Shown here piece by piece: positions 47,003-61,707 of a stretch of 61,832 bases of DNA. A model generated the notes under the pieces. That model saw only the letters and a list, made by a program, of their open reading frames with translations, was not told the origin of the DNA and ran no database searches. The translations under genes and the position numbers were made by a program. The DNA is from Methylomonas sp. (GTDB lineage: Bacteria > Pseudomonadota > Gammaproteobacteria > Methylococcales > Methylomonadaceae): positions 1 through 61,832 of the forward strand of contig PESC01000047.1 in the NCBI GenBank assembly GCA_002929135.1, written 5' to 3'. Numbering within the stretch: the first letter of the stretch is position 1; each line of letters opens with the position of its first letter.

Positions 47003-48340
47003 ATGACCACCAACACGCCCCAACCACCTGCCGCACCCAGTCTGGCCGAAGCCAGCCGCTTCTGGCTGAAGCTGGGCTTCATCAGCTTTGGTGGCCCGGC
47101 CGGGCAGATTGCCATCCTGCATCAGGAGTTGGTGGAACGCCGACGCTGGATCAGCGAAAACCGTTATCTGCACGCATTGAATTACTGCATGATCCTGCCA
47201 GGGCCGGAAGCTCAGCAGCTTGCCACCTACATCGGCTGGCTGCTGCACAAAACGCCGGGCGCGCTGATTGCAGGTGGCCTGTTCGTGCTGCCTTCGCTGC
47301 TGATTCTGATCGGCCTGGGCTGGGTGTACATGCGCTTTGGCGACCTGCCCGCCGTGGCCGGTTTGTTGTACGGCATCAAACCGGCTGTCACCGCCATCGT
47401 GCTGTTTGCCGCCTACCGCATCGGCAGGCGTGTGCTGAAAAACCGCTGGTTGTGGGCCATGGCGGCGGTGGCCTTCATCGCGATTTTTGCACTGCATCTG
47501 CCGTTTCCGCTGATTGTCATTACTGCCGGTTTGCTGGGTGCCGCCGGTGGCAGATGGATGCCGGACAGGTTTGCTGTCGGGGGTGGCCATGGCAAGGCGA
47601 TGGCAAATTCTGGCCCGGCGGTGATCGATGACGACACGCCGCCGCCCGCTCATGCCGTGTTCAGCCGCCAGCGGTTCTACCGTTTGTTGGGCATAGGCTT
47701 TGGCTTGTGGGCCGTCGTGCTGGGCGGGTTGTGTGCCGGATACGGCTGGCAGAACGGTCTGACGCAAATGGCCTGGTTCTTCACCAAGGCCGCCTGGCTG
47801 ACCTTTGGTGGCGCCTACGCCGTCTTGCCTTACGTTTATGAAGCAGCGGTCGAGCATTACCGCTGGCTGACGCCACAGCAAATGATGGACGCCCTGGCGC
47901 TCGGTGAAACCACGCCGGGGCCTTTGGTCATGATCAACGCCTTTGTCGGTTTCGTCGCCGGTTGGGGGCAGGCCGGGCTGGTGACGGATTCGCCATTTTG
48001 GGCCGGTGTACTGGCGGCAGTCGTCGTCACTTATTTCACCTTTTTGCCCAGTTTTCTGTTCATTCTGGCCGGTGGCCCGCTGGTGGAAACCACGCACGGC
48101 AATGTGAGCTTTACCGCCCCGCTGACTGCGGTTACCGCTGCCGTGGTCGGTGTCATCGTCAATCTGGCGGTATTTTTTGCCTATCACGTATTCTGGCCAC
48201 ACGGCTGGGGTGGCGGATTCGATGGCTTTTCCGCCTTATTGAGCTTGTTGGCACTGCTGGCGCTGTTGCGTTTCAAGACAGGCATCATTCCGGTCATTGC
48301 CGCATCCGCTGTCGCTGGCGGGTTGTGGTCGTTCCTATAA
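47003..48340 (+). CDS. chrA: Chromate transporter ChrA (CHR family, two-domain)
   Basis: 445 residues with two related CHR domains, the long-chain type. The first shows FWLKLGFISFGGPAGQIAIL then RRRWISENRYLHALNYCMIL and PGPEAQQLATYIGWL; the second FFTKAAWLTFGGAYAVLPYV then QQMMDALALGETTPGPLVMI. About ten to twelve membrane helices. Members export chromate and confer resistance, although chromosomal copies are often of unknown substrate. Its placement behind pdxA-rsmA is probably incidental. Confidence 0.92.
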   Translation: MTTNTPQPPAAPSLAEASRFWLKLGFISFGGPAGQIAILHQELVERRRWISENRYLHALNYCMILPGPEAQQLATYIGWLLHKTPGALIAGGLFVLPSLLILIGLGWVYMRFGDLPAVAGLLYGIKPAVTAIVLFAAYRIGRRVLKNRWLWAMAAVAFIAIFALHLPFPLIVITAGLLGAAGGRWMPDRFAVGGGHGKAMANSGPAVIDDDTPPPAHAVFSRQRFYRLLGIGFGLWAVVLGGLCAGYGWQNGLTQMAWFFTKAAWLTFGGAYAVLPYVYEAAVEHYRWLTPQQMMDALALGETTPGPLVMINAFVGFVAGWGQAGLVTDSPFWAGVLAAVVVTYFTFLPSFLFILAGGPLVETTHGNVSFTAPLTAVTAAVVGVIVNLAVFFAYHVFWPHGWGGGFDGFSALLSLLALLALLRFKTGIIPVIAASAVAGGLWSFL

Positions 48341-48764: not shown

Positions 48765-50312
48765 ATGACGCATTCTACAAAAACCGCGCTGGCATTCGCG
48801 GTGGGGTATTTATTGTTTCAGCCGCTGCAAGCCATTGCCGGTTCCTCGAACGGCAACGCGAGTTCATCCGGAAAGCTGCCGGTTCCGGCTGCGGGCCGCC
48901 CCATCCACTGCAACGCGGCGGTACAAGACGACTGGATAGGCAGGCGCAACCCATACAAACCAGTTTATAGCCTGCACGATACCTCGAAACTGCCTGACTG
49001 GCTGTCGTTCTCGGTCGAACAGCGTACCCGTTACGAGGGACAGGATGGCGCCTTTCGCTTCGGCGCCGAAGGCGGCGATCAAGCCCTGCCGATACAAAAT
49101 TGCGCCTGGCTGGAGGTGCGTCATCAGGGCTTCCGCGCCGGCGTGGAGTTTTTGGATGCCCGGCAATTCCTGTACGACGAAGGTTCGGCCGCCATTTCAC
49201 GGGTCGGCAGCCGCATACCCGTCACCAACACCCAGGTCAACGAGGCAGATTTTCTTCAGGTTTATGGTGCCTGGGCCGCCGAAAACGTCGGTGGCAGCGG
49301 TGTGGACGCCGAAGTGAAGCTGGGCCGACAAACGCTGGATCTGGGCTACATGAACGGACGGCGGCTGGTGGCACGCAACGTGTTCCGTAACACCGTCAAC
49401 GCCTTTACCGGTGCCTTGATTCGGCTGCGCGATCATGACGATCACTGGCAGATGAAGTTTTTCGGCTTTCAGCCGGTGGGTCGCAATCCTTCAGCAGCAG
49501 ACGACATCATGGCCGGCCAACACGATTCCGACGAAGAGGAATCCCGCACCTTTTTCTCGGGCGGCCATGTCGAGTGGTTCAACGTCCTGCCCACAATGCA
49601 CGCCGAAGCCTACCTATTGCACTTGGACGAACATGATCGCCCCGGCGGCGACACCGCCAACCGCCGCCTGTACACGCCCGGGGTGCGCACTTACCGCCAA
49701 CCGGCCAAGGGGCATTGGGATTTCGAAACGGAGACCATAGGCCAGATAGGCTCATCGCGCGCATCGGCGGGGGCAAACGACACCCGCGACCTCGATCACC
49801 GGGCCTGGTTTCAGCATGTGCAACTGGGCTATACCTTCGATTTGCCGTGGGCACCGCGTTTCCATGCCATGTACGACTACGCCAGTGGCGACAGCAATTC
49901 GCGGGATGGCGAGAACAACCGTTTCGACACGCTTTATGGTGCTCGGCGCTGGGAACTGGGGCCTACCGGCACTTTTGGTGCGTTGGCCCGCGCCAATATC
50001 AACACGCCGGGTTATCGCCTGTCGCTGGCTCCCCGTGACAACATAACCACGTTTTTTCAGCATCGTTTGGTGTGGCTGGCGGAAGGCCAGGATGAATGGG
50101 TGGGTACCGGCTTGCGGGACAGAACAGGGCGTTCGGGAGATTTCGTCGGCCACACCTTCGAAGTCTCGGCGCGCTGGGATGTCAACAACAGCCTGACGCT
50201 GGATAGCGGATGGACACGCATAGCCAAGGGCGAATTTGCGATGAATGCGCCGGGTGCACCGGATGGCAACGATGTCGATTACTTCTACGTTCAGAGCCTG
50301 GTGCGGTTTTAG
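48765..50312 (+). CDS. Outer-membrane porin of the alginate-export (AlgE-like) family
   Basis: 515 residues with a signal peptide (ALAFAVGYLLFQPLQAIAG) and a beta-barrel matching Alginate_exp: LSFSVEQRTRYEGQDGAFRF, AEVKLGRQTLDLGYMNGRRL, FRNTVNAFTGALIRLRD, FHAMYDYASGDSNSRDGENN. It ends in alternating hydrophobics and Phe (DYFYVQSLVRF). In many bacteria these are general or sulfonate/organic-anion porins unrelated to alginate; no alginate genes are here. AAGGAAAA precedes the ATG. Paired with the YezD-like gene. Confidence 0.85.
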   Translation: MTHSTKTALAFAVGYLLFQPLQAIAGSSNGNASSSGKLPVPAAGRPIHCNAAVQDDWIGRRNPYKPVYSLHDTSKLPDWLSFSVEQRTRYEGQDGAFRFGAEGGDQALPIQNCAWLEVRHQGFRAGVEFLDARQFLYDEGSAAISRVGSRIPVTNTQVNEADFLQVYGAWAAENVGGSGVDAEVKLGRQTLDLGYMNGRRLVARNVFRNTVNAFTGALIRLRDHDDHWQMKFFGFQPVGRNPSAADDIMAGQHDSDEEESRTFFSGGHVEWFNVLPTMHAEAYLLHLDEHDRPGGDTANRRLYTPGVRTYRQPAKGHWDFETETIGQIGSSRASAGANDTRDLDHRAWFQHVQLGYTFDLPWAPRFHAMYDYASGDSNSRDGENNRFDTLYGARRWELGPTGTFGALARANINTPGYRLSLAPRDNITTFFQHRLVWLAEGQDEWVGTGLRDRTGRSGDFVGHTFEVSARWDVNNSLTLDSGWTRIAKGEFAMNAPGAPDGNDVDYFYVQSLVRF

Positions 50313-51214: not shown

Positions 51215-51955
51215 CTATTGTTTGCGCGTGAGCATTTGCCGGAAAACAAGCCCCAAGCCCAGCAGGAACGACCAGACTGCCGGTGGCAGCGGAACGACGG
51301 CACTACCGTTGACCACAACATCGACATTAAAGGTGCGCGACTGCCCCGGACTCAATGAAAAAGCCTGAATCATGCTGTTCTGTACCTGCACCGATGACAA
51401 TGCGAATGCACTCGCCTCGATGTCGGCGAAACCATCGAACGCCGGAACCTCATCGGAAAAACGGGTCAGCGACACGACCACCTGGCTGAAATCACCGGCA
51501 GTCGCCGCGTCGAGCAGATAACTGAAATTCAAATCCAGCGAAAACGTGTCGGTCGCGCTGTTATTGCTCACCGTCCAGCTATACCAGCCCAACTGGTGGG
51601 TAACCAGCTCACCGCTGCCGCTGTTGCCCAACACATTGAACGAGTGATTGAAAACGCGGGTATCGTCAGCATAAGGCCCAGTCAGTGACACCGGCGCATC
51701 CGGCACCGATACCGATGCACCGCCGCTACCGATCAGCCACGAGCGAAAAGGCTCAGGCTTCAGGCTGTCGCGATACTCGTAGCTGGCATCGATGAAAACA
51801 TCGCTGAAAACCACAGACGTTGGCGAGGATTGGTTACGCAGATTCTGCACAACGAATTGGATGCTTGCCCGGGTATCGAACGACGAGGCTGCGTTCGCCA
51901 GATTTGAAAAAACAATCAGCGGGCAGGCAAGCAGTGCAAATTGAACAGGTTTCAT
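51215..51955 (-). CDS. Secreted protein with exosortase-type anchor (VPLPPAVW), near the di-heme peroxidase
   Basis: 246 residues with signal peptide (FALLACPLIVFSNLANAASS). The body is beta-rich (ASIQFVVQNLRNQSSPTSVV, HQLGWYSWTVSNNSATDTFS) and the C-terminal sorting tail VPLPPAVWSFLLGLGLVF plus RKQ belongs to the PEP-CTERM-like group. AAGGAAAAC precedes the ATG at 51955. It is downstream of the di-heme peroxidase on the same strand (158 bases, with a palindromic repeat between). No family recognised for the mature domain. Confidence 0.72.
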   Translation of the reverse strand: MKPVQFALLACPLIVFSNLANAASSFDTRASIQFVVQNLRNQSSPTSVVFSDVFIDASYEYRDSLKPEPFRSWLIGSGGASVSVPDAPVSLTGPYADDTRVFNHSFNVLGNSGSGELVTHQLGWYSWTVSNNSATDTFSLDLNFSYLLDAATAGDFSQVVVSLTRFSDEVPAFDGFADIEASAFALSSVQVQNSMIQAFSLSPGQSRTFNVDVVVNGSAVVPLPPAVWSFLLGLGLVFRQMLTRKQ

Positions 51956-52070
51956 GATTTTGTTTTCCTTTTTCAATAGGTTGCGTCTGGTTAAAACTAA
52001 AATTCCGGAGTTCGTAGGCGGCAAGCAACGCGCGGCACAAGCGTTCGGTACGCAGCGCGTCCCGTCTGCA

Positions 52071-52113: not shown

Positions 52114-54483
52114 TTAGTTAGCGTCTGGCAAATGCCGGTCAAATGGCAGAAGCGCTTTGGGCGTTACACCATCGCTCTCCACCGCGCCGCCAGCACCCAC
52201 TGCGGGTATCACCAGCATGTCATCGGCTGCCAGTTTGCTGTCTACAGGGTTGCCCGACTCGACCGACTGGGTATTGCCTTTGTGTCCATGCGGAATGGCG
52301 ATTTCCGGATGATCGAAGGGTGCCCGCTCGAAACGGACGCGGTCATCGGTCAACGACTTGAGAAACTCGACCAGATCGGCCCGGTTTCTCTGTGAACTCA
52401 GATCGGAACCGAGCGGCAAGGCATTGCCCACCAGATTGATGCCATCGAGGAAGTGGTGCTGGTTTTCATTGATGAAATTACCTTTACGGGCGTAGAACTC
52501 AACTACCTGCTCCAGCGTTGCCATGCCACCGTTGTGCATGAACGGCCCGGTCAGTTCGACATTGCGCAACGTCGGAATCTTGAACGCCGCCTTGTCGCCT
52601 ATCGCCATTTTCTGCATGCCTAATGCTGCTCTGGCAGCCGCCACGGTCGGAATTTTCGGCACATTGGTTTCGCCGGTAAGATCGGAGACGATACAGCCGG
52701 TTGACTTGTTTACCCCGTCACGCACACCGTCGACCTCAAGCTGATCGGCATCGTTGAAATACTCGGTGTCAGGCGTCGTGGAACCGGACGGATCGACCAG
52801 ATGGGCGATGAAATCGCAGGCCCGGATGCGATACACAACCGAATCGACGACGTTCTGGGTGTAGCCTGCCAGATATTGCTGGTATTGGTAACTGAATGAC
52901 AGGGGGTTGCCGAAATCATCGACATCCATCAAACCGCGATCGTTATCGGGATGGGTCACGCCGGTATTGGCGAAATCGATGTCGCGGAAACGTGCCGAAT
53001 TCGGGGGTAGCGTAACGGTAAGATCGCGGGTCACCACGTTGGCGAACTCGGTCAGCCCCGCCACATGACCGCCCCTGAATGGTCCCAGCGCATTGAGGCC
53101 AAAAGGAATTCTGCTGACTTCAGGCCCATAAAAAGCACCGGCCACGGGTTTCATCACCATGCTGTAAGGCACGATGGCTGCTGATGTGGCCAACGGCCCG
53201 GCATGACAGGTGGAACAATGATTCGCCATGAAAACGTTGAAACCATTGGTCAAGCGGGCAGCTCTTTGCAAATCGTTCGGATACAGCAGATTCCACCTTG
53301 GATTGAGATAGGTACCGCCGGTGGTCAGAACGCGCGGCACCTGATCGATCGGCGCCTGATCGGAAACCAGGGTAGCTTGGTACATCTGCAAGGCGATGCC
53401 GAAAAACAGCGAAAAATTGACTTCAGCCTGCGAGAAAGGTGCTTCACCCGGACGCGGTGCCGGAAACCCTCTGACGCCTGCGGTGCTGAACGACCAGTAT
53501 TTGGGATTGAATGCTTGAGTAACCAAAGTGCGATACGTGGTTTTCAACCCCGGCAATTGTGCGCTTGCCGTGCTGTTGGTTAAACCCAGTGGCCCGAAGA
53601 CACTGTCCTGATGATGAACTTTCTGGTGCTGCAAGGGTGGGCGCGACAACAGCTTGCGGCCAATATCGGCCCAGCGCCGCTGCCGACAGGCCATTTCGGT
53701 ATCGCTGAACGGCGGTGCCATGGCCAGCGAGGCCAGCGAGGCGTTTTCCAGGCGCAAACGCTGTTTGGCGATACTACGAGCGCCGGTTCTGACCCAGATG
53801 CCCGCATCCGGATCCCGGTCGCCCCACAGGCTGACGCCGTTGTAAACATTGTTGGCCCTGCCATCCCAGAAGTTGCGGAAGGTGAATATGGTGTTGATGA
53901 CCGTGGGCGCGTTGCGCGGCTCTACCCGGCGGGTGTTGGTATGGCCGACATTGAAAACGTCGTCGGCATCCCGGCTGCATACATCGCTGCTGCCGGTGAA
54001 ACGGGACGCACCTCTGAATTCGCCGCTAAAGGTGCCGGACGAGGCAATCACGTCATCGGTGTCGCGAATGGCGGTCGCGTTTCTGTCGAACGGATTGGTT
54101 CTTTCGTGCAGCGGAAAATCCTGTTTGGTCAAGCTGTGATTGGGGCCGCCATCACCCGAGCCGAGGGTGCTGAAGGTCAAGCCGGTGGCCGTATGGGCTT
54201 TCAGGCCGGGGTCGACCTGGTTCTTGACGCGCACATCGGCACCGGCATGAAAATGGCACGATCCACAAGCCATGCCGTCGCTGCCGACGTTGATGTCCCA
54301 GAACAAGGCCTTGCCCAAGGCAATCGCCCGTTCCTTGTTGATGACGATGGGGTCACTGCCGTCCAGCAAACCCGGCACGTCGGGTAGCGGCAAGCCCATC
54401 AGCGGCCCAGGTTTGGGGCCGTGTCCGTGTGCGAATTGCATTGCCAACAGCAATGCAATCGACGCGAGATAACTGTTTTTCAT
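52114..54483 (-). CDS. Large di-heme cytochrome c peroxidase/MauG-family protein (SACCP-like)
   Basis: 789 residues with a signal peptide (SYLASIALLLAMQFAHGHG). Two heme c sites: CGSCH at 73-77 (GMACGSCHFHAGADV) and CSTCH at 423-427 (NHCSTCHAGPLATS). The first has the peroxidase context LGKALFWDINVGSDGMACGS, and IPTLRNVELTGPFMHNGGMA sits near residue 655. Ordinary di-heme peroxidases have about 330-450 residues; this size resembles the surface-associated cytochrome c peroxidase of Methylococcus capsulatus, a copper-responsive surface protein. Relatives either reduce peroxide or, as MauG/MbnH, oxidise residues of a partner protein. The tail is His-rich (PEIAIPHGHKG). Flanked by two anchored secreted proteins on the same strand. 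Confidence 0.85.
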   Translation of the reverse strand: MKNSYLASIALLLAMQFAHGHGPKPGPLMGLPLPDVPGLLDGSDPIVINKERAIALGKALFWDINVGSDGMACGSCHFHAGADVRVKNQVDPGLKAHTATGLTFSTLGSGDGGPNHSLTKQDFPLHERTNPFDRNATAIRDTDDVIASSGTFSGEFRGASRFTGSSDVCSRDADDVFNVGHTNTRRVEPRNAPTVINTIFTFRNFWDGRANNVYNGVSLWGDRDPDAGIWVRTGARSIAKQRLRLENASLASLAMAPPFSDTEMACRQRRWADIGRKLLSRPPLQHQKVHHQDSVFGPLGLTNSTASAQLPGLKTTYRTLVTQAFNPKYWSFSTAGVRGFPAPRPGEAPFSQAEVNFSLFFGIALQMYQATLVSDQAPIDQVPRVLTTGGTYLNPRWNLLYPNDLQRAARLTNGFNVFMANHCSTCHAGPLATSAAIVPYSMVMKPVAGAFYGPEVSRIPFGLNALGPFRGGHVAGLTEFANVVTRDLTVTLPPNSARFRDIDFANTGVTHPDNDRGLMDVDDFGNPLSFSYQYQQYLAGYTQNVVDSVVYRIRACDFIAHLVDPSGSTTPDTEYFNDADQLEVDGVRDGVNKSTGCIVSDLTGETNVPKIPTVAAARAALGMQKMAIGDKAAFKIPTLRNVELTGPFMHNGGMATLEQVVEFYARKGNFINENQHHFLDGINLVGNALPLGSDLSSQRNRADLVEFLKSLTDDRVRFERAPFDHPEIAIPHGHKGNTQSVESGNPVDSKLAADDMLVIPAVGAGGAVESDGVTPKALLPFDRHLPDAN

Positions 54484-54680
54484 AACTTGAATCCTTGAAT
54501 TGCGACTATCAAAAAACACACGGCTACCAGATGGTAATGCGGTTGACTTCACAACGAATCGTACTGAGGTCGAAGCCCTGGCGGTAAGGCGGCATCGGCC
54601 CCTGCGCAAACCGTGCCATTCAATCCGCTACCCCCCCCGCCGACGCGGGAATGCACAGCCTGGCCTGCTGGCCAGGCAAT

Positions 54681-54731: not shown

Positions 54732-55532
54732 TCAGGCCGTTAGCTTGAATCTACGCTTTGCGCCTGCGGCAAAGGCCATCAGTGCCGAACCGAATAGCCA
54801 AGCGGCGGCTGGAACGGGCACGACGGTTATCCTAAGATTGTCATATCTGACATCGAAATCGCGCAGTCCCGCAAGTGCGGTGTTATGACGTCCGACGGGA
54901 TGTATCCAGACAGCCTTGACATTGGCAAATCCTGCGTGTGCCGCTATGGCATCGAATGTGCCGTTGAAACCGATATCGACGAAGGCTTCCGCAACCAGGC
55001 TGGTTGGGGTTGGGTCGGACCACAGGGTGGGGTTGTAGGCGGCACTGAAGCCCTTGATGTGGAAACGATCCTGTACGCTGTCCCAATCCGGATTCGGTGT
55101 ACCGTCAGGTAAGAATTTGGCATGAGGATTGAGATCGCTGAAGGGCGATATGATGCTAAGCGAATCAAAACTGAAGCTGAACGGCGAGCTGTCGGCGCTC
55201 GTCAAGCGGATATAGAAACCGGACGCATCACCCTTGGTGTGGATATTGCGATTGCCAGGCGCTCCCCCACGATGCAGGTGGGCACCTGCCGAAGTTTGAT
55301 CGAAAACGGTTGAAACCACCACATCATTTTTGACGTAGCACACCCCTTCGACGCAATTGGTGCTAAGGATGCCGTTGGACGTGACGGGGCCATTGATGGT
55401 GTTGCTTTTGCCGTAAGTGATGATGGGATGATCCTGAAAATCAAGCGTACGCGGGCCAATGACGACCGCATTGGCCGCGCCGGATGCCACCAGCATTGCG
55501 GGAATTGCCATTAGTTTTAATGTGTTGATCAT
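54732..55532 (-). CDS. Secreted HLHRGG-domain protein with exosortase-type anchor
   Basis: 266 residues: signal peptide (LMAIPAMLVASGAANAVV), one beta-rich domain, and a sorting tail VPVPAAAWLFGSALMAFAAG plus KRR. The domain has a Cys pair (C60, C65; NCVEGVCYVKND), the motif AHLHRGGAPGNRNIH (HLHRGG at 85-90), FNGTFDAIAAHAGFANVKAV and DFDVRYDNLRI. The same motifs in the same order occur inside the 1262-residue protein at 57031-60819, so the two domains are homologous. AAGGAAA precedes the ATG at 55532. It lies upstream of the di-heme peroxidase and divergent from the thioredoxin operon. Function unknown. Confidence 0.8.
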   Translation of the reverse strand: MINTLKLMAIPAMLVASGAANAVVIGPRTLDFQDHPIITYGKSNTINGPVTSNGILSTNCVEGVCYVKNDVVVSTVFDQTSAGAHLHRGGAPGNRNIHTKGDASGFYIRLTSADSSPFSFSFDSLSIISPFSDLNPHAKFLPDGTPNPDWDSVQDRFHIKGFSAAYNPTLWSDPTPTSLVAEAFVDIGFNGTFDAIAAHAGFANVKAVWIHPVGRHNTALAGLRDFDVRYDNLRITVVPVPAAAWLFGSALMAFAAGAKRRFKLTA

Positions 55533-55930
55533 TGCTATTTCCTTATTGACGAGTTGAACGAAAATTGACGAATCTAAATGCCCCAAAACGAATAAGCAAT
55601 TATCGGGCCATGACTTTGGTCTTGCCCGATTCCGCGTTTTGGCGTAGCAGCGCACGGGGAGCCGGGTTTATGCTCGTTCGGCATGGGCGGCTACAGACAC
55701 AATGGAACAGCGATGGTTGTTTGTTGGGGCTGCGCCTGTCTGCTTTCGATTGTGGCCGTGTATGCGTTAAAAACTGTGTTAAATAACGCTAACTGTGGCA
55801 AACACCACAATTTATGGTTACGCACCCACAAACCGTTAACTGGCTATCAGACTTGTCGGCGTGATTATGCTGGCAAATGCACGGCGACTGCAAATGTGGC
55901 TTGCCTGTGCCCGGCCGCTGGGTATGGGAT

Positions 55931-55950
55931 CCCACGCGGAGCGTGGGAAC
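55931..55950. repeat. Dispersed palindrome, copy 9
   Basis: TCCCACGC-GGA-GCGTGGGA core; the outer arm is slightly degenerate (GAT instead of GTT). Confidence 0.8.
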
Positions 55951-55971
55951 CAGAAACGTCTCGTACTCCTC

Positions 55972-55994
55972 GTTCCCACGCTCCGCGTGGGAAC
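55972..55994. repeat. Dispersed palindrome, copy 10
   Basis: GTTCCCACGC-TCC-GCGTGGGAAC, perfect 10-bp arms, opposite loop orientation to copy 9 and 22 bases from it. Confidence 0.85.
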
Positions 55995-56137
55995 GCATAC
56001 CAGGCTCAGATGAAGCACAAGGCCAGACCTGCACCCCGGTCTATGGAAAACCAGTCCTCGTTGCCATGCTCCGGGTGGCATACGTATCGGGTCTGTTCCT
56101 TCCTCAGGCGCTGTCCTGTGCATCGGGCTTGGTATGG

Positions 56138-56160
56138 GTTCCCACGCAGAGCGTGGGAAC
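56138..56160. repeat. Dispersed palindrome, copy 11
   Basis: GTTCCCACGC-AGA-GCGTGGGAAC, perfect 10-bp arms. Confidence 0.85.
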
Positions 56161-56344
56161 CAGAAGCCACCCTCGCCCGGACTTACTCATCCTCGTTCCC
56201 GCACGCCGGAGTTTCTCGCTCCCACGCTGACGGCTGGAGCCAGCCAAACAACAAACTGGCACCAAATTTGCTAAAAATCTCGCTCAAATGGCAACATAGC
56301 CGGTTTTCGCTGAAAACGCCCCCTCCCTCAACCTCTGGAGCCTT

Positions 56345-56839
56345 ATGACACGATCGTTCATAGCCGCTGTTCTGGTTTGTTCTTTCGCCGCCAGCCCGGT
56401 GTCTGCAACCAACGTCGGCGACGCAGCACCGGCGTGCGAGTCGGCCCGTTCGCTGACCCAGCAAGCGCTTGCTCCGGCCCATTTCAGTGGCAAGGTGGTG
56501 CTGATCGATTTCTGGGCCACCTGGTGTCCGCCCTGCAAGCAATCCATGCCGTTTCTCAACAGCACCCGCAACGCGCTGCAAGCCCAGGGCTTTGAAGTGA
56601 TTGCCGTCAATGTCGATGAAGACAGCGGCGAGGCGCAGGCTTTTCTTAACCGCAACCCGGTCGATTACCCGCAGTTTTTCGATGCCACGGGCGGCTGCCC
56701 GCAAATTTACGCAGTCAAGGCCATGCCATCGTCGTATCTCGTTGATAAGAGCGGAAAAATCCGCATGATCCACAAAGGCTTCCGCGACGAGGACAAGGCC
56801 GACATCGAAAAAGCCATCCATGACTTGTTGACGGAATAA
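56345..56839 (+). CDS. Periplasmic TlpA-like thioredoxin
   Basis: 164 residues with a signal peptide (FIAAVLVCSFAASPVSAT). The thioredoxin fold is standard: VVLIDFWATWCPPCKQSMPF with active site C61-PP-C64, VIAVNVDEDSGEAQAF, cis-Pro loop VKAMPSSYLVDKSGKI. TlpA/ResA-type proteins reduce disulfides, often in cytochrome c or copper-site maturation. It is the first gene of a three-gene operon with a DUF4266 lipoprotein (4 bases later) and the large DUF3570 fusion, so it probably keeps cysteines of those partners reduced. Confidence 0.88.
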   Translation: MTRSFIAAVLVCSFAASPVSATNVGDAAPACESARSLTQQALAPAHFSGKVVLIDFWATWCPPCKQSMPFLNSTRNALQAQGFEVIAVNVDEDSGEAQAFLNRNPVDYPQFFDATGGCPQIYAVKAMPSSYLVDKSGKIRMIHKGFRDEDKADIEKAIHDLLTE

Positions 56840-56843
56840 CACG

Positions 56844-57065
56844 ATGTTCAAAACGCTACGTATCGCCCTAGTCATGGCGCTGGTTTGTTCAGGCTTGAGC
56901 GGCTGCGCCCAGGTCGCGCCGTGGGAGCGCGGCAACCTGGCCAAGCCCAAGATGGCCATAGACCCGCACCCCAACTTCAACGGTTTCCGCGACCACACGT
57001 TTACCAGCAAGGCGGCCACCCAGGGCGGCCATGGCGGCGGCGGGGGTGGCTGTGGCTGCAACTAG
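56844..57065 (+). CDS. DUF4266 lipoprotein with C-terminal Gly6-CGCN tail
   Basis: 73 residues. A lipobox (CSGLSGCAQV) makes the mature form about 54 residues and lipid-anchored. The core VAPWERGNLAKPKMAIDPHP, FRDHTFTSKAA and the tail GGHGGGGGGCGCN are diagnostic of DUF4266, a family of unknown function that regularly accompanies DUF3570 proteins. The two tail cysteines follow the lipid-anchor Cys by about 50 residues and are candidates for metal binding, cofactor attachment or disulfide exchange with the thioredoxin. The 3' end overlaps the next gene by 35 bases in another frame. Confidence 0.85.
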   Translation: MFKTLRIALVMALVCSGLSGCAQVAPWERGNLAKPKMAIDPHPNFNGFRDHTFTSKAATQGGHGGGGGGCGCN

Positions 57066-60000
57066 AACAGGACAGGGCAAGGCACTTGCCGCGCTGACTT
57101 CGGCTGCCCTGGGCCTGCCGGGAATAAGTAGCCAGGCCGCCATACCGGCCAGCACCATCATCGGCAACGCCAGTTATGGTCATTACCAGGAAAGTGACAA
57201 CCGCATGCAGGTGTCGGTTTACCGCGCTGACGCTGTCATACCGTTGACAGATCGCCTGGAACTGGCCTTCAGTCTGGACAGGGATACTTATTCCGGTGCC
57301 ACCCCGGCATTCAGCCTGCCCAGCTCGCTGGCGTTGTTACCGGCCACGGAATATCTTACGGGGCGAACGGTATTCAGGGATTTGGTGTCTGCCGCGACCG
57401 GCATGTTTGACGCCAGCACCATCACCTTCAAGGGGGGGCTTGAGACCTTCCACGCGGTTTCCGCCCGGCGCAGCCAGCTTGCCAACGAGATTGCAAATGC
57501 CCTGAACGAGCGCCGTACCGCGATAGACAGCAGCCACCAGGCAGCCGAATCGAGCCGTACCGCAGCTCACCAAGGCGACATCGCCAATGCCGGAATAACA
57601 CACCAGGCCACACTAAATGCGATATCTGCTGGCCTGTCGGCGGTGCAAACCGCCTACAGCACTGACATCACACAACTCAACCAACAAAGAGCCAGCGCCG
57701 AGGCCGACTATCTTGCGCTAAACCCCAGGCCCAGCAGCATAGAGTTTTCCACGACAGTGGACTTTGGAACCGGTACTGCCGTTCTGAACGCAGGGGCTTT
57801 CTATGGCAAAGCCAACGAACCCGCGATTGCCGGTGGTCTGTGCCCTAGCGGTAGCTGTATCGTCCAGAACGGCATGGTGGTCGGCACTCCTTCCGATATT
57901 AGTCAGCAACCCAACGACCAGGGCCACCTGCACCGGGGCGGCTCTGGTAGCAACCGGGCAATCAACTATCATCAGGATGCTCCCGGCATTTACATCCGCG
58001 CCCTGGATTCATCCGCCTTCAGTCTGAATTCGATCCGGGTCGATACCCGCTACCATGACGCCAATAATCCGTACACCCCAGGCCAACCGGGTTACGACCC
58101 CGCTTTGCACAATTGGCACATGCTAGGGTTCAATTCTGCGGTCAATCGCGATCTTTCCGACCTCAACAAAAATCCCATCTGTGCCAATTTCTCGACCTGC
58201 GTTACCAGTTTGAGCTTCGCCAATGGCTTCAATGGCACCTTGACACTGGACAATACCTGGCAAAACATCAGCGCCGCCTGGATTGTTTTTTCCAATTTCA
58301 ACAGCGTCAGCAAGATCACAGCTGATCCACTCGATCCCAGCAGCATCATACCGTTCGACATCCAGCTCGACGATATCAACGTGTCGCCTAGCGCTGTCTT
58401 TGTCAACTGGAATTCCAGCCTGAGCACTTTCCGCAGCAATCTCAACGCTCAGTACGATGGGCTGATTGCCGCCCGCACTACCCGGTTAAACCAGGACATC
58501 GCCAACCTCAATCTCGACCAGAATGCCATCAATACGGCCAACAACCAACACGCAGCAGCACTCGCGGCACTGACGACAACTTACAACAATGACCTGGCTG
58601 CCCTGCAACAGAATCGCCTGACTGCGCTGGCCGACATACCCAACCTGGAACGACAGTTGCAGTACAACGCCCATGTCGCCCGTTACGCAGCAATACTGAA
58701 CGCCGTCACGCCCAGCGACACCCCGGCCTTGCAGCGCTTCGCCATGCAACCGCAGGAAACCCGGACCATGCCGCAGTTTGCCGCACGCTACTATTTCGAC
58801 GCCACCACGCTGAGTTTCAACGGTGGTCTGTCCGACGAACCGGATTTTCTGTCCAACTTCGGCTCGGTCAATGTCAATCATGAATTCAACGACAAGCTGA
58901 CCACACTGTCTTTTGGTTACGGCAAAACCAGCAACCATATCAGCCGCGCCATGCCTCGCCATACGGCCGCTGGTCACGTTCATGGCGGTGTGGCCTACGC
59001 CTCGCCCAAATACCCGCAGCTTGATGAAACCAGCCAGTTCGACAACGTCAACCTGGGGTTGTCGCATGTGTTGAGCAAGAACACGCTGTTGCAGACGACA
59101 CTGAATTACAGCCATCAGCGTGGTTATTTGAGCAACCCGTACAAATTCGTTTACGTGCGCGGTGAAGTTTCGCCCGAAGAATATGTTGCCATCGAAAACA
59201 CCATCGGCGATCCGGTTAAATCAGTCAATTTCGACTGGAACGCCATTACCCATCTGGAAATGGTCGGCATCGAGCTGTTTCGCGATCACAGGCCGCGGCA
59301 GCGCAATATGTTGTCGTGGTCCAACCGTATCAACCAGTACCTGCCCAGCCTGGATGCCGCCGTGCATGCCGATTACCGCTTTTTTGCCGACGACTGGGAC
59401 ATCAATTCACACACCTTTGAATTACGCTGGCTGCAATCGCTGCCCAACGGCTGGACGGTGACGCCGGGTTTGCGCTACTACTCGCAATCACAGGCCGAGT
59501 TTTTTGCGCCGTATTTTCTGGCACCGCGTGCCGATGGTTTCTATTCCAGCGACTTCCGGCTGTCGGGTTTCGGCACGGTGGGCGGTGGCATCACCATAGG
59601 CAAAGAATTTGCCCGTGGCATCCGGCTGCAAACCAGTTTCGAATACACCAGCCATTCGGGCAATTTCAAGCTGGGCGGTGGTGGCGTGGGCGATTACGCC
59701 GATTTCGATTATTTCATGGCCCACGCCAACCTCAGTGTCGATCTGTCGGCGCGTAGCCTGGGCATGATGGGTGGTGGCGGCAGTGACCACAGTCATCACC
59801 GCCATCACCACAGTGCTGTGATACCGGCCGGTCTGTTGTGCAACGGTCATTTGCTGGGGGCTGCCGATGATTTCATGGTGGGCTACATCTTTTCCCACAC
59901 AGCACAAAGCAGCCCCATGTACCACGGCACCTCGCCGGTCGATGACGCCACGTTGGTGAATAATGCCTGTCCTGGCGGGGCGAATGGCTGTCTTTACAAA

Positions 60001-60819
60001 CCCACTTATATGACCATGCAGATGCACATGCTGGACATAATGTACGCGCCAACGGACTGGATGACGCTGATGCTTATGCCACAACTGATGAGTATGGAGA
60101 TGGGCATGAGCAGCGCGTTGCGCCGACCGGTTACCGGCGAAATGTCCCACGGCGCCGCCGGTCATGCTAGCAACGACATCGGCGATACCATCGTCACCGC
60201 GCTGGTCAAGGTTGCCGAAGAAGGCAATCACACCGTGTTTGCCGGTATCGGTGCCAGCGCGCCAACCGGCAGCATTGATGCACAGATGTCACCCCCCCGT
60301 CTGGTATCGACCACCGGCACCGCAACCGAACCCGGTAGCGCCAATTTGCAAGATTACGGCATGCAACTGGGTAGCGGCACCTGGGATTTTAAGCCCAGTT
60401 TGACCTATACCGGGCACCTCGACGACTGGGGCTGGGGCTTGCAAGCCAGTGGCACCAAACGGCTTGAGTACAACAAGTATGCCTACGCCTTGGGCGACCA
60501 GTTGCAGGTTTCGGGCTGGGGTAGTTATGCGCTGTTCGATTGGCTGTCCGCGACCGTGAGAGGCGCATACACTTGGCAAGACCAAATTCAGGGTCGCCAC
60601 AACCAGGCGCTGGACACAACGGCACCGATGTATTTTCCCAGTAATTACGGCGGCAAGTTCTGGGATGTCGGCATGGGTTTGAGCACGACCATCCAAGATG
60701 GCAAATTTGCCGGTCACGGCCTGGCAGTGGAATGGTTGCAGCCGGTGCATTCCGATTTCAACGGCTACCAACTAGATCGCGTTGGCGCTTTGACGGCAAC
60801 CTGGAGTTTCATGTTTTGA
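57031..60819 (+). CDS. Giant DUF3570 outer-membrane protein with inserted HLHRGG ectodomain and second barrel
   Basis: 1262 residues. Layout: leader (AALTSAALGLPGISSQA); DUF3570 strands (about 40-140, SYGHYQESDNRMQVSVYRAD); helical segment 145-232; HLHRGG domain about 240-455 (C271/C276, HLHRGG 299-304, FNG 400-402); helical segment 458-555; rest of DUF3570 about 565-910 (DDWDINSHTFELRWLQSLPN); His cluster 919-927; second barrel 930-1262 with twelve Met in residues 994-1026. DUF3570 proteins alone have about 400 residues and lack the insert. It overlaps the DUF4266 gene by 35 bases; start at ATG 57031 or an in-frame GTG shortly after. Function unknown; an outer-membrane metal or redox role is inferred from partners. 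Confidence 0.8.
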   Translation: MAAAGVAVAATRTGQGKALAALTSAALGLPGISSQAAIPASTIIGNASYGHYQESDNRMQVSVYRADAVIPLTDRLELAFSLDRDTYSGATPAFSLPSSLALLPATEYLTGRTVFRDLVSAATGMFDASTITFKGGLETFHAVSARRSQLANEIANALNERRTAIDSSHQAAESSRTAAHQGDIANAGITHQATLNAISAGLSAVQTAYSTDITQLNQQRASAEADYLALNPRPSSIEFSTTVDFGTGTAVLNAGAFYGKANEPAIAGGLCPSGSCIVQNGMVVGTPSDISQQPNDQGHLHRGGSGSNRAINYHQDAPGIYIRALDSSAFSLNSIRVDTRYHDANNPYTPGQPGYDPALHNWHMLGFNSAVNRDLSDLNKNPICANFSTCVTSLSFANGFNGTLTLDNTWQNISAAWIVFSNFNSVSKITADPLDPSSIIPFDIQLDDINVSPSAVFVNWNSSLSTFRSNLNAQYDGLIAARTTRLNQDIANLNLDQNAINTANNQHAAALAALTTTYNNDLAALQQNRLTALADIPNLERQLQYNAHVARYAAILNAVTPSDTPALQRFAMQPQETRTMPQFAARYYFDATTLSFNGGLSDEPDFLSNFGSVNVNHEFNDKLTTLSFGYGKTSNHISRAMPRHTAAGHVHGGVAYASPKYPQLDETSQFDNVNLGLSHVLSKNTLLQTTLNYSHQRGYLSNPYKFVYVRGEVSPEEYVAIENTIGDPVKSVNFDWNAITHLEMVGIELFRDHRPRQRNMLSWSNRINQYLPSLDAAVHADYRFFADDWDINSHTFELRWLQSLPNGWTVTPGLRYYSQSQAEFFAPYFLAPRADGFYSSDFRLSGFGTVGGGITIGKEFARGIRLQTSFEYTSHSGNFKLGGGGVGDYADFDYFMAHANLSVDLSARSLGMMGGGGSDHSHHRHHHSAVIPAGLLCNGHLLGAADDFMVGYIFSHTAQSSPMYHGTSPVDDATLVNNACPGGANGCLYKPTYMTMQMHMLDIMYAPTDWMTLMLMPQLMSMEMGMSSALRRPVTGEMSHGAAGHASNDIGDTIVTALVKVAEEGNHTVFAGIGASAPTGSIDAQMSPPRLVSTTGTATEPGSANLQDYGMQLGSGTWDFKPSLTYTGHLDDWGWGLQASGTKRLEYNKYAYALGDQLQVSGWGSYALFDWLSATVRGAYTWQDQIQGRHNQALDTTAPMYFPSNYGGKFWDVGMGLSTTIQDGKFAGHGLAVEWLQPVHSDFNGYQLDRVGALTATWSFMF

Positions 60820-60954: not shown

Positions 60955-61341
60955 CTACACTTTGATAATGCTTTCGCCATACCGAGCCACTTGTGGATCG
61001 TGGGTTATCAACCGCATCGGTTCAACCAGTGCCTGAGCAACTAGGATGCGATCAAACGGGTCTTGATGATGGTTGGGCAAGTTTTCGACGGCAATCGCAT
61101 GTTCAGCTTCGATTGACAGCAAGCGATAACCGGATTCACGAAAGTAATGCACGGCGTCCTGGCTTGACACGGGCATATCGCCTCGACCGAGCGCAAACTT
61201 GATCGCAATTTCCCAGACACTGGCAGTACTGATCCAGACGGTTGCCCTGGGTGACTGAATCATATCCCGCACCGGTTTTGGCAGCTTTGGATTATCCGTG
61301 ATGGCCCATAAGGCAACATGGGTGTCGAGCAATAAATTCAA
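60955..61341 (-). CDS. vapC: VapC-type PIN-domain ribonuclease toxin
   Basis: 128 residues of a PIN nuclease. First Asp in LLLDTHVALWAITDNPKLPK, Glu in SVWEIAIKFALGRG, and the C-terminal HHQDPFDRILVAQALVEPM with paired Asp, then LITHDPQVARYG. Relatives cut tRNA or rRNA when the antitoxin is lost. The start overlaps the antitoxin stop by 4 bases, the usual toxin-antitoxin arrangement. Confidence 0.92.
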   Translation of the reverse strand: MNLLLDTHVALWAITDNPKLPKPVRDMIQSPRATVWISTASVWEIAIKFALGRGDMPVSSQDAVHYFRESGYRLLSIEAEHAIAVENLPNHHQDPFDRILVAQALVEPMRLITHDPQVARYGESIIKV

Positions 61342-61586
61342 GCGGACTCTCCGCTAATGAACAGCCGTGCTACGTCCTCGTTATACGTATCAATGGTGTC
61401 AGGCACTTCAAACTTGCCTTTGGCAACCCCAATGCGCTGTCCCGCCGCTACGGTATCCATCGGGACAAGCTTGGCGACCGGGCGGCCATTACGGGCAATG
61501 ATAATTTCATGTTCCTCCCCTTGTTCAATGGATTCGACCAAGCGGGACAATGAAGACTTGGCCTGTAACATGTTGACGGTTTGCAT
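61338..61586 (-). CDS. vapB: Phd/YefM-type antitoxin (VapB partner)
   Basis: 82 residues. VNMLQAKSSLSRLVESIEQG followed by EEHEIIIARNGRPVAKLVPM is the classic Phd/YefM fold that binds its own promoter; the flexible C-terminal half (DTYNEDVARLF) would wrap the PIN toxin. The ATG at 61586 is preceded by GGAGGT on the minus strand (plus strand ACCTCC), a strong ribosome site. Upstream and co-transcribed with vapC. Confidence 0.9.
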   Translation of the reverse strand: MQTVNMLQAKSSLSRLVESIEQGEEHEIIIARNGRPVAKLVPMDTVAAGQRIGVAKGKFEVPDTIDTYNEDVARLFISGESA

Positions 61587-61707
61587 GACGACCTCCAGAA
61601 GTGCGCAACTTAGTCTAGTCTGGCCAGATTTGAAAAACAATCGGCATTCCCGCGCAGGAACGTGGAAATAAGAACAACCTGGCCTTCGGCAACCACTGTG
61701 CGTCGAT

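Follow-up and report, generated by a model that had tools for sequence, protein, structure and literature searches.

A putatively flavinylated DUF3570 barrel of methanotrophs with a predicted stalked head domain and a free, PEP-CTERM-like copy of the head

The DUF3570 protein of Chlorobium luteolum is a substrate of ApbE and is flavinylated at two [ST]GA[ST] motifs, according to passages of PMC8238504, which also count 316 clusters of ApbE, DUF3570, thioredoxin, and DUF4266 without DsbD. A larger relative of this arrangement is present in Methylomonas sp. (assembly GCA_002929135.1) on contig PESC01000047.1, an entire contig of a 2.57-Mb draft genome (labelled G000) that was analysed over its full 61,832 nucleotides and is here called the window. 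The plus strand of the window encodes, at 57031..60819, a 1262-residue fusion in which a DUF3570 barrel carries an insert, probably stalked, and is followed by a second barrel-like part, as judged from its open reading frame (ORF), Pfam, and AlphaFold2. The head domain within the insert has a free copy of 266 residues, encoded nearby on the minus strand at 54735..55532.

Like the clusters described in those passages, the locus contains PF12094, a thioredoxin, and a DUF4266 peptide with a CxC motif on the same strand, together with one intact [ST]GA[ST] motif and ApbE in the genome. It is unlike them in having an insert of ~455 residues at the motif loop, a degenerate second motif, a second barrel fused behind the first, and ApbE off the contig. 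Three features of the locus and its relatives go beyond an initial annotation made from the window's sequence: the flavinylation motif at the stalk base, sequence exchange between copies in relatives, and a giant-protein architecture.

The head domain inside and outside the barrel

The inserted head (residues 238-453; 57742..58389, plus strand; delimited by copy comparisons and AlphaFold2) and the free protein are homologous by sequence comparison. The two copies in the window share ~35-36% identity (E 5e-13), and profiles of inserted and free copies (23 and 26 rows) match with a probability of 100 and an E value of 9e-73, which speaks against the two domains being unrelated. The initial annotation had drawn the relationship from an ordered set of shared motifs, and the relationship holds better than the set: the last motif reads DxxxDxxxV in the insert but DxxxDxxxI in the free copy, and HLHRGG and FNGT are not conserved as such over 49 copies. 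Near-invariant positions over these copies include HxH, D, G, Y-x-R, A-x-W, and a late D.

In the order Methylococcales, 311 genomes were searched, with no more than 10 candidates scored in each, so copies may be missed; the head domain was found in 31, and in 27 of these it lies inside a DUF3570 fusion. The insert-bearing genomes represent five genera in two families, and the other four (G042, G085, G140, G275) have free or distant copies only. Outside the order, the class sample comprises 368 genomes, and one of them (G522) has the head. The free copy of G522 is located at L109:9319-11448 (minus strand), beside broken DUF3570 pieces and a thioredoxin.

A free copy is present at 24 of the 27 insert loci versus 3 of 26 insert-less barrel loci (Fisher p 9e-9, a value that is too small because the loci are related by descent). 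The 26 fetched loci are a subset of the insert-less loci, and the neighbour counts are affected by the extent of the fetched stretches, which are ~8-20 kb long and in some cases run to contig ends. All 24 loci with a free copy hold at least one copy with a PEP-CTERM-like tail. The insert loci lacking a free copy are those of G029 (contig end), G028 (where a free copy lies at the end of another contig, L105), and G181, and the insert-less loci with one are those of G140 (without a tail) and of G275 and G042 (distant copies). The pairing agrees with the recurrence near DUF3570 that the initial annotation proposed as a check, and it sustains the larger part of its claim that one locus displays the same domain in two ways: barrel insertion and pairing with a free copy stand, and exosortase anchoring is a prediction. 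Because some insert-less barrels have a free partner, the free gene probably arose first and its domain was later captured by the barrel. At three loci (L033, L035, L046), a single fusion is accompanied by three free copies, of which one shares its orientation and two are inverted.

The free protein has a signal-peptide-like start and a PEP-CTERM-like tail, VPVPAAAWLFGSALMAF...KRR (54747..54827, minus strand), with the pattern VPVPAAAWLFG...KRR; translation of the plus strand at this position is interrupted by stops. The tail scores 15.5 bits against the NCBIfam VPLPA-CTERM model (TIGR03370), below the cut-off of 25.35. TIGR03370 matches 17 of 25 scanned free copies at E<=0.01 and the Pfam PEP-CTERM model matches 6 of 25; among five free copies scanned singly against TIGR03370, one (L108) exceeds the cut-off. 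Two PF09721 exosortase matches above cut-off are present in the genome of the window, on other contigs, and the free copy is predicted to be anchored by exosortase.

The free domain is modelled as an all-beta fold with a predicted local distance difference test score (pLDDT) of 83. Foldseek gives weak matches to BtuJ1/DUF4465 (B12-binding), a phage tail fibre, SUN domains, and CBM22; for BtuJ1/DUF4465 and CBM22, E values are 2.8e-4 to 1.3e-3, template-modelling (TM) scores to the query 0.35-0.43, and identities 7-10%. Solved structures searched by sequence with the head gave a best E of 0.76, the head region of the fusion has no Pfam match, and two heads scanned alone have no NCBIfam match. 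Full-length free copies have sub-threshold matches to several PEP-CTERM families. Among these, NF038120 (QFxxD) matches 20 of 25 free copies at E<=0.01, in some cases across the domain (L034 scores 28.4 bits against a cut-off of 80), and by these matches the head may conceivably be a distant relative of NF038120 proteins. An initial match of the free protein to the Flocculation protein PepA (NF033554; E 2.7e-4) was rejected as homology: matches to the family occur in 90 of 274 genomes, with 5 above cut-off and many in the tail region alone, and a tail-less profile comparison gives a probability of 0.1%, its power being limited by 7 diverse rows with 5 over cut-off.

A third architecture is found in G187, where the head lies near the N-terminus of a very long ORF of 2325 residues (L095:2071-9045, minus strand), with DUF4347 in front and cadherin/Ig-like repeats behind. 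An ORF of 1618 residues in G178, cut by the contig (L097:3-4856, minus strand), has a head at the same place.

The fusion protein, its flavinylation motif, and the predicted stalk

Pfam DUF3570 (PF12094) matches the fusion in two stretches (E 4.8e-78; 263.3 bits versus a gathering score of 25), the best of which spans residues 557-895 and profile positions 102-426. In a genome scan with the same profile, positions 2-91 match nt 57088-57336 and positions 102-426 match nt 58699-59715; the two halves end and resume at profile positions 91-102, so ~455 residues break the profile there. The insert consists, in order, of a helix, a beta domain of ~215 residues, and a helix, and follows the third predicted barrel strand.

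AlphaFold2 was applied to residues 36-935 with a seven-sequence alignment, and the resulting barrel model has low confidence (pLDDT 58.8, predicted TM score (pTM) 0.34). It shows three strands, a helix of 92 residues, the beta domain, helices within 97 residues, and further strands, which places the insert between strands 3 and 4. On the plus strand, the predicted parts are the N-terminal part of DUF3570 with strands 1-3 (57139..57330; model residues 13-62, to which 35 is added for fusion numbering), helical arm 1 (residues 137-228; 57439..57714; model helix 102-193), the head, helical arm 2 (residues 463-559; 58417..58707; model helices within 428-524), and the remainder of DUF3570 from strand 4 onward (residues 557-895; 58699..59715; also delimited by Pfam). 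These are followed by a His-rich linker, DHSHHRHHH, seen in the sequence and alignment (residues 919-927; 59785..59811), and a second, Met/His-rich, barrel-like C-terminal part assigned from the annotations of relatives (residues 936-1262; 59836..60816). The two-stretch Pfam match and the low-confidence model thus agree with the domain order of the initial annotation. All 50 Foldseek matches listed for the barrel model are outer-membrane barrels or complexes of them, with low TM scores and of a generic kind.

DUF3570 proteins are usually uninterrupted, as the initial annotation had held. In 249 genomes searched across the phylum, 17 others have DUF3570, and their ORFs measure 389-467 residues in 16 and 912 residues in one; the insert as a general DUF3570 trait is rejected on these lengths. 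One fusion, truncated at its 5' end by the contig boundary and at least 2005 residues long, contains two tandem heads with helical-looking spacers between them (L043:13463-19477, minus strand).

The second barrel part (residues 936-1262) has no Pfam match at E<=0.01. Its relatives are annotated as 'transporter', 'outer membrane beta-barrel protein', or 'alpha-amylase' and lie on alphaproteobacterial plasmids in 8 of 10 matched records. One relative is near PepSY-type and FeoB genes in a plasmid record of Methylosinus sp. C49 (L131), another is near DsbD-domain and cytochrome-c-biogenesis genes in a plasmid record of Ruegeria sp. B32 (L130), and no common theme was found in these plasmid neighbourhoods.

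At the foot of the insert lies SGAT (residues 88-91; 57292..57303, plus strand), an ApbE-type flavinylation motif of the form [ST]GA[ST] that is invariant in the seven-row alignment. Of the 25 fusions whose N-terminal end is intact, 24 have the motif at this position, as SGAT in 21, SGAS in two, and TGAT in one. At the second motif position, the window has SAAT and the six aligned relatives have SAAS. DUF4266 is represented by a lipoprotein-like peptide ending in CGCN (56844..57065, plus strand; PF14086, E 1.2e-20) that overlaps the fusion start, and upstream of it on the same strand is a TlpA/ResA-type thioredoxin identified by profile matches (56345..56839), which is present in 23 of the 27 insert loci. 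ApbE is present in 12 of the 27 insert loci versus 10 of the 26 insert-less loci, and the genome of the window has two ApbE genes, both on other contigs. To judge from the motif and the gene content, the barrel is a putative substrate of ApbE.

The orientation of the insert was read from strand parity. Strands were counted back from the last, with the short strands at model positions 671-678, 706-713, and 803-809 taken as loop, which gives 16 strands. In the author's reading of this weak model, connections on one side of the barrel are all 2-4 residues long, and the other side has every connection of at least 10 residues, including the insert, plus three of 3-5 residues. By the usual rule for such barrels, an insert on the long-loop side would face the extracellular side. 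The distances from motif to head and from head to QPxETR covary across fusions, with a rho of 0.94 for 24 fusions and also 0.94 for 18 distinct length pairs, although the corresponding p-values are too small because the sequences are related. They range from 82/49 to 223/193 residues, non-helical parts included; the test covers 24 of the 27 fusions, L043 and L052 being cut and L104 missed by the search pattern (its motif is TGAT). Such covariation is what an antiparallel hairpin stalk would need, and the two helical arms would form an antiparallel extracellular stalk. A simple Fourier scan of the arms for periodicity was uninformative. Parity in the weak model and flank covariation support the earlier proposal of a stalk that projects the domain from an extracellular loop, and parity gave no sign that the helical segments belong to the periplasmic side of the barrel.

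Sequence exchange between copies and neighbouring genes

In a tree of 49 heads from 24 loci, made before later loci were added, inserted and free copies are intermixed, with 12 label changes, at least 9 of which are forced by starred branches. The free copy of the same genome is the closest among all compared loci in 9 of 24 loci. In G041 and G148, within-genome identities of 88 and 83% compare with 78% between the two inserts, and the barrels are 96% identical. Quartet sites were counted as within-genome : orthologous : crossed over 16 genome pairs that share genomes; within-genome sites exceed orthologous sites in 9 pairs and crossed sites in 13, most clearly in G041/G148 (57:14:3) and G090/G112 (83:5:1). 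Clustering of the exchange sites into tracts was tested in 9 pairs and is present in 7 (permutation p <=0.016); the other two have almost no within-genome sites. DNA identity between copies reaches 88% over 561 nt (L036). By these sequence comparisons, several lineages show real exchange between copies; in the window it either dates far back or did not happen.

In five of seven genome pairs, divergence is clearly greater in the insert region than in the barrel; G025/G023 and G024/G011 have little or no excess. In G178/G187, one head window is 84% identical in nucleotides versus 98-100% in the barrel after the insert. At 11 of 26 sites, the two copies of G031 have a tract state that is new relative to the insert and free copies of two outgroup genomes. 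In G011/G031 and G178/G187, the head has elevated synonymous divergence; the case for import is not rested on it because some barrel windows of G041/G148 are as low.

Beyond the free copy, the minus strand encodes a MauG/MbnH-like di-haem protein (ORF at 52114..54609; profile matches), a neighbour in 23 of the 27 insert loci, and beside it a second small protein with a PEP-CTERM-like tail in its sequence (51215..52024, minus strand), which is conserved in 20 of 25 loci by clustering and 10 of 27 insert loci by direct search. Clustered palindromic repeats, GTTCCCACGC...GCGTGGGAAC, resembling repetitive extragenic palindromic (REP) elements, lie at 55917-56228 between the free-copy and thioredoxin genes. 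A PIN-domain toxin with a Phd/YefM antitoxin follows the fusion at 60958-61640 (minus strand), and an alginate-export-type porin (48765-50309) and a chromate transporter (47003-48337) are encoded on the plus strand. A tetratricopeptide repeat (TPR)-sulfotransferase gene (L053:13582-15228 and relatives) is present in 21 of the 27 insert loci versus 6 of the 26 insert-less loci.

Candidate functions and described systems

The explanation preferred here, which is tentative and falls somewhat short of an even chance, is that a stalked head inserted in a flavin-type barrel tethers the barrel to a matrix ligand or to an exosortase-type partner. In a redox chain of thioredoxin, DUF4266, and DUF3570, the DUF3570 barrel would be the outer-membrane member and would carry the flavin. 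Its stalked head would bind an extracellular matrix ligand that the PEP-CTERM protein also binds, or that protein itself, and sequence exchange would keep the two copies alike while the head diverges between species. The predicted beta-sandwich head occurs in three settings, namely an exosortase-type protein, a probable stalk above the barrel, and a giant repeat protein, and this is most simply explained if it is an extracellular binding module; the likeness of barrel-borne and free copies fits a shared ligand or mutual binding, which leads to the tether. Domain-fusion logic further points to a PEP-CTERM protein having a receptor in the outer membrane, and the locus would tie the surface redox chemistry of methanotrophs to proteins sorted by exosortase. 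Homology, pairing, flank covariation, motif conservation, and exchange in several relatives were computed; the extracellular side, the stalk, the flavinylation, and the exosortase anchoring are inferred from sequence and models, and the matrix ligand and the tethering function are guesses.

An unlikely extension of the tether is a two-part matching system, in which a surface redox barrel displays a copy of its own matrix protein on a stalk of variable length; recombination would keep the barrel-borne and matrix-borne heads alike within a cell line, and heads would diverge between lines. If true, only its own matrix would be coupled to a cell's electron exit by flavin (or to its intake of metal). 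In this reading, the domain would have come into the barrel from the gene of a partner that was already its neighbour. The tether idea is directly testable in Methylomonas sp. LW13: the full locus (L033) lies on its chromosome, and passages of PMC11072679 describe genetic tractability and an assay for its matrix phenotype. Those passages cite earlier work in which disruption of the epsH exosortase in LW13 lowered matrix polysaccharide, and they contain nothing on this locus.

Several observations count against the preferred tether. The free copy of G140 (L100) lacks a tail, that of G009 (L040) is very divergent, and G181 (L099) has GGAS at the motif and no free copy found. Labels in the head tree are more clustered than chance, with 12 changes against a shuffled mean of ~16.6, and only 9 and 4 of 500 shuffles were as low. 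Exchange is not universal, as quartets of 1:149:1 in G178/G187 and 3:94:3 in G024/G011 show, and none was detected in the window, where quartets with the nearest relative, G027, are 27:29:17. The copies of the window are the second least alike of 24 pairs and have no DNA match at E 1e-3. The barrel model is built from seven sequences with a pTM of 0.34, and the parity argument assigns three short strands to loops. For the head, fold matches reach a TM score of 0.43 at best, and PepA, to which the free protein first matched, shows no homology in the profile comparison.

The main rival is capture of a metal or small ligand, because a MauG-like gene accompanies 23 of the 27 insert loci versus 8 of the 26 insert-less loci and because MopE-type systems combine such enzymes with copper proteins of the cell surface. 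Free and stalked heads would bind one and the same scarce ligand such as copper, an iron chelate, or a corrinoid, the MauG-like enzyme would modify the nearly invariant head Trp as happens in MopE/CorA systems, and the Met/His-rich second barrel would import the ligand. An invariant HxH and the nearly invariant Trp in 49 copies, the richness of the second barrel and its linker in Met and His, and a top fold match, albeit weak, to a B12-binding protein are consistent with such capture. Copper binding by MopE through two His and a kynurenine is described in PMC3423442, and passages of PMC3621798 describe SACCP/MopE and CorB/CorA as pairs of a di-haem enzyme and a partner. Yet NCBIfam matches of the free copy and heads include no MbnP-type or other metal-binding model, MauG-like genes also occur in loci with neither head nor free copy (L041, L055, L118, L119, L121, L123), and another small protein, at 51215-52024, sits beside the MauG-like gene; ligand capture is judged unlikely. 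A periplasmic insert that bridges the barrel to inner-envelope partners is far less probable still. Long helical arms could span the periplasm, where the thioredoxin and DUF4266 partners are generally expected, but strand parity in the weak model points outward, and other carriers of the head, the exosortase-type proteins and a giant repeat protein, belong to kinds expected outside the cell.

Two further rivals turn on the exchange itself, and both are considered rather improbable. Under polymorphic self-recognition, or escape from phage or predators, the head would differ between strains and the free gene would be a recombination donor, as in babA/babB. The divergence of the insert beyond the barrel in five of seven pairs, the exchange tracts, and the new state of G031 suit this idea; however, the free gene is unlike a silent cassette, since all 24 loci that have it hold at least one open frame with a PEP-CTERM-like tail, and the sample has one genome per species, with little or no excess in two of the seven pairs. 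Alternatively, there may be no functional coupling, the insert being a chance one-time insertion from a neighbour gene and the exchange an incidental gene conversion between nearby inverted copies. In all nine loci with >70% protein identity between copies, the free copy is inverted relative to the fusion, and the three loci with same-orientation copies only (L040, L045, L047) have 31-41% identity, as incidental conversion would have it. Orientation alone is no explanation, since several inverted pairs are <50% identical, including those of the window and L042 (47%). Retention of the insert in 27 genomes of five genera and two families, conservation of core residues in both copies, covariation of the flank lengths, and the two heads in series in L043 also argue against chance.

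The combination of a barrel-borne and a free head has no description in the portions of the open-access literature on DUF3570/DUF4266, PEP-CTERM, and exosortase that were covered, and no PEP-CTERM gene conversion was found in corresponding portions. For electrogenic Methylobacter, passages of a 2026 paper (PMC13322032) propose a multihaem porin-cytochrome complex, and the term DUF3570 is absent from that paper. The MopE/SACCP and CorA/CorB proteins of methanotrophs, as described in passages of PMC3621798, resemble the locus in placing a surface-type protein near a MauG-like di-haem gene and differ from it in that the head has no match to MbnP-type models. PEP-CTERM/exosortase matrix proteins share with it the tail pattern of the free copy and the presence of two exosortase genes in the genome; unlike them, the domain also occurs inside a barrel, it does not belong to the PepA family, and the tail in the window is below cut-off. 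Foldseek ranks the BtuJ1/DUF4465 and CBM22 ligand-binding beta-sandwiches among the top matches to the free domain, which is not evidence of membership. The Hop adhesins of Helicobacter pylori (BabA/BabB, SabA, LabA) carry a helical handle and a head on an outer-membrane barrel. Intragenomic recombination between paralogues is described for such adhesins in PMC3444412. Compared by function and not by sequence, the two systems are alike in their working. The partner of a Hop adhesin is another barrel adhesin, whereas the partner here is of exosortase type and the DUF3570 barrel is presumed to be a flavin protein.

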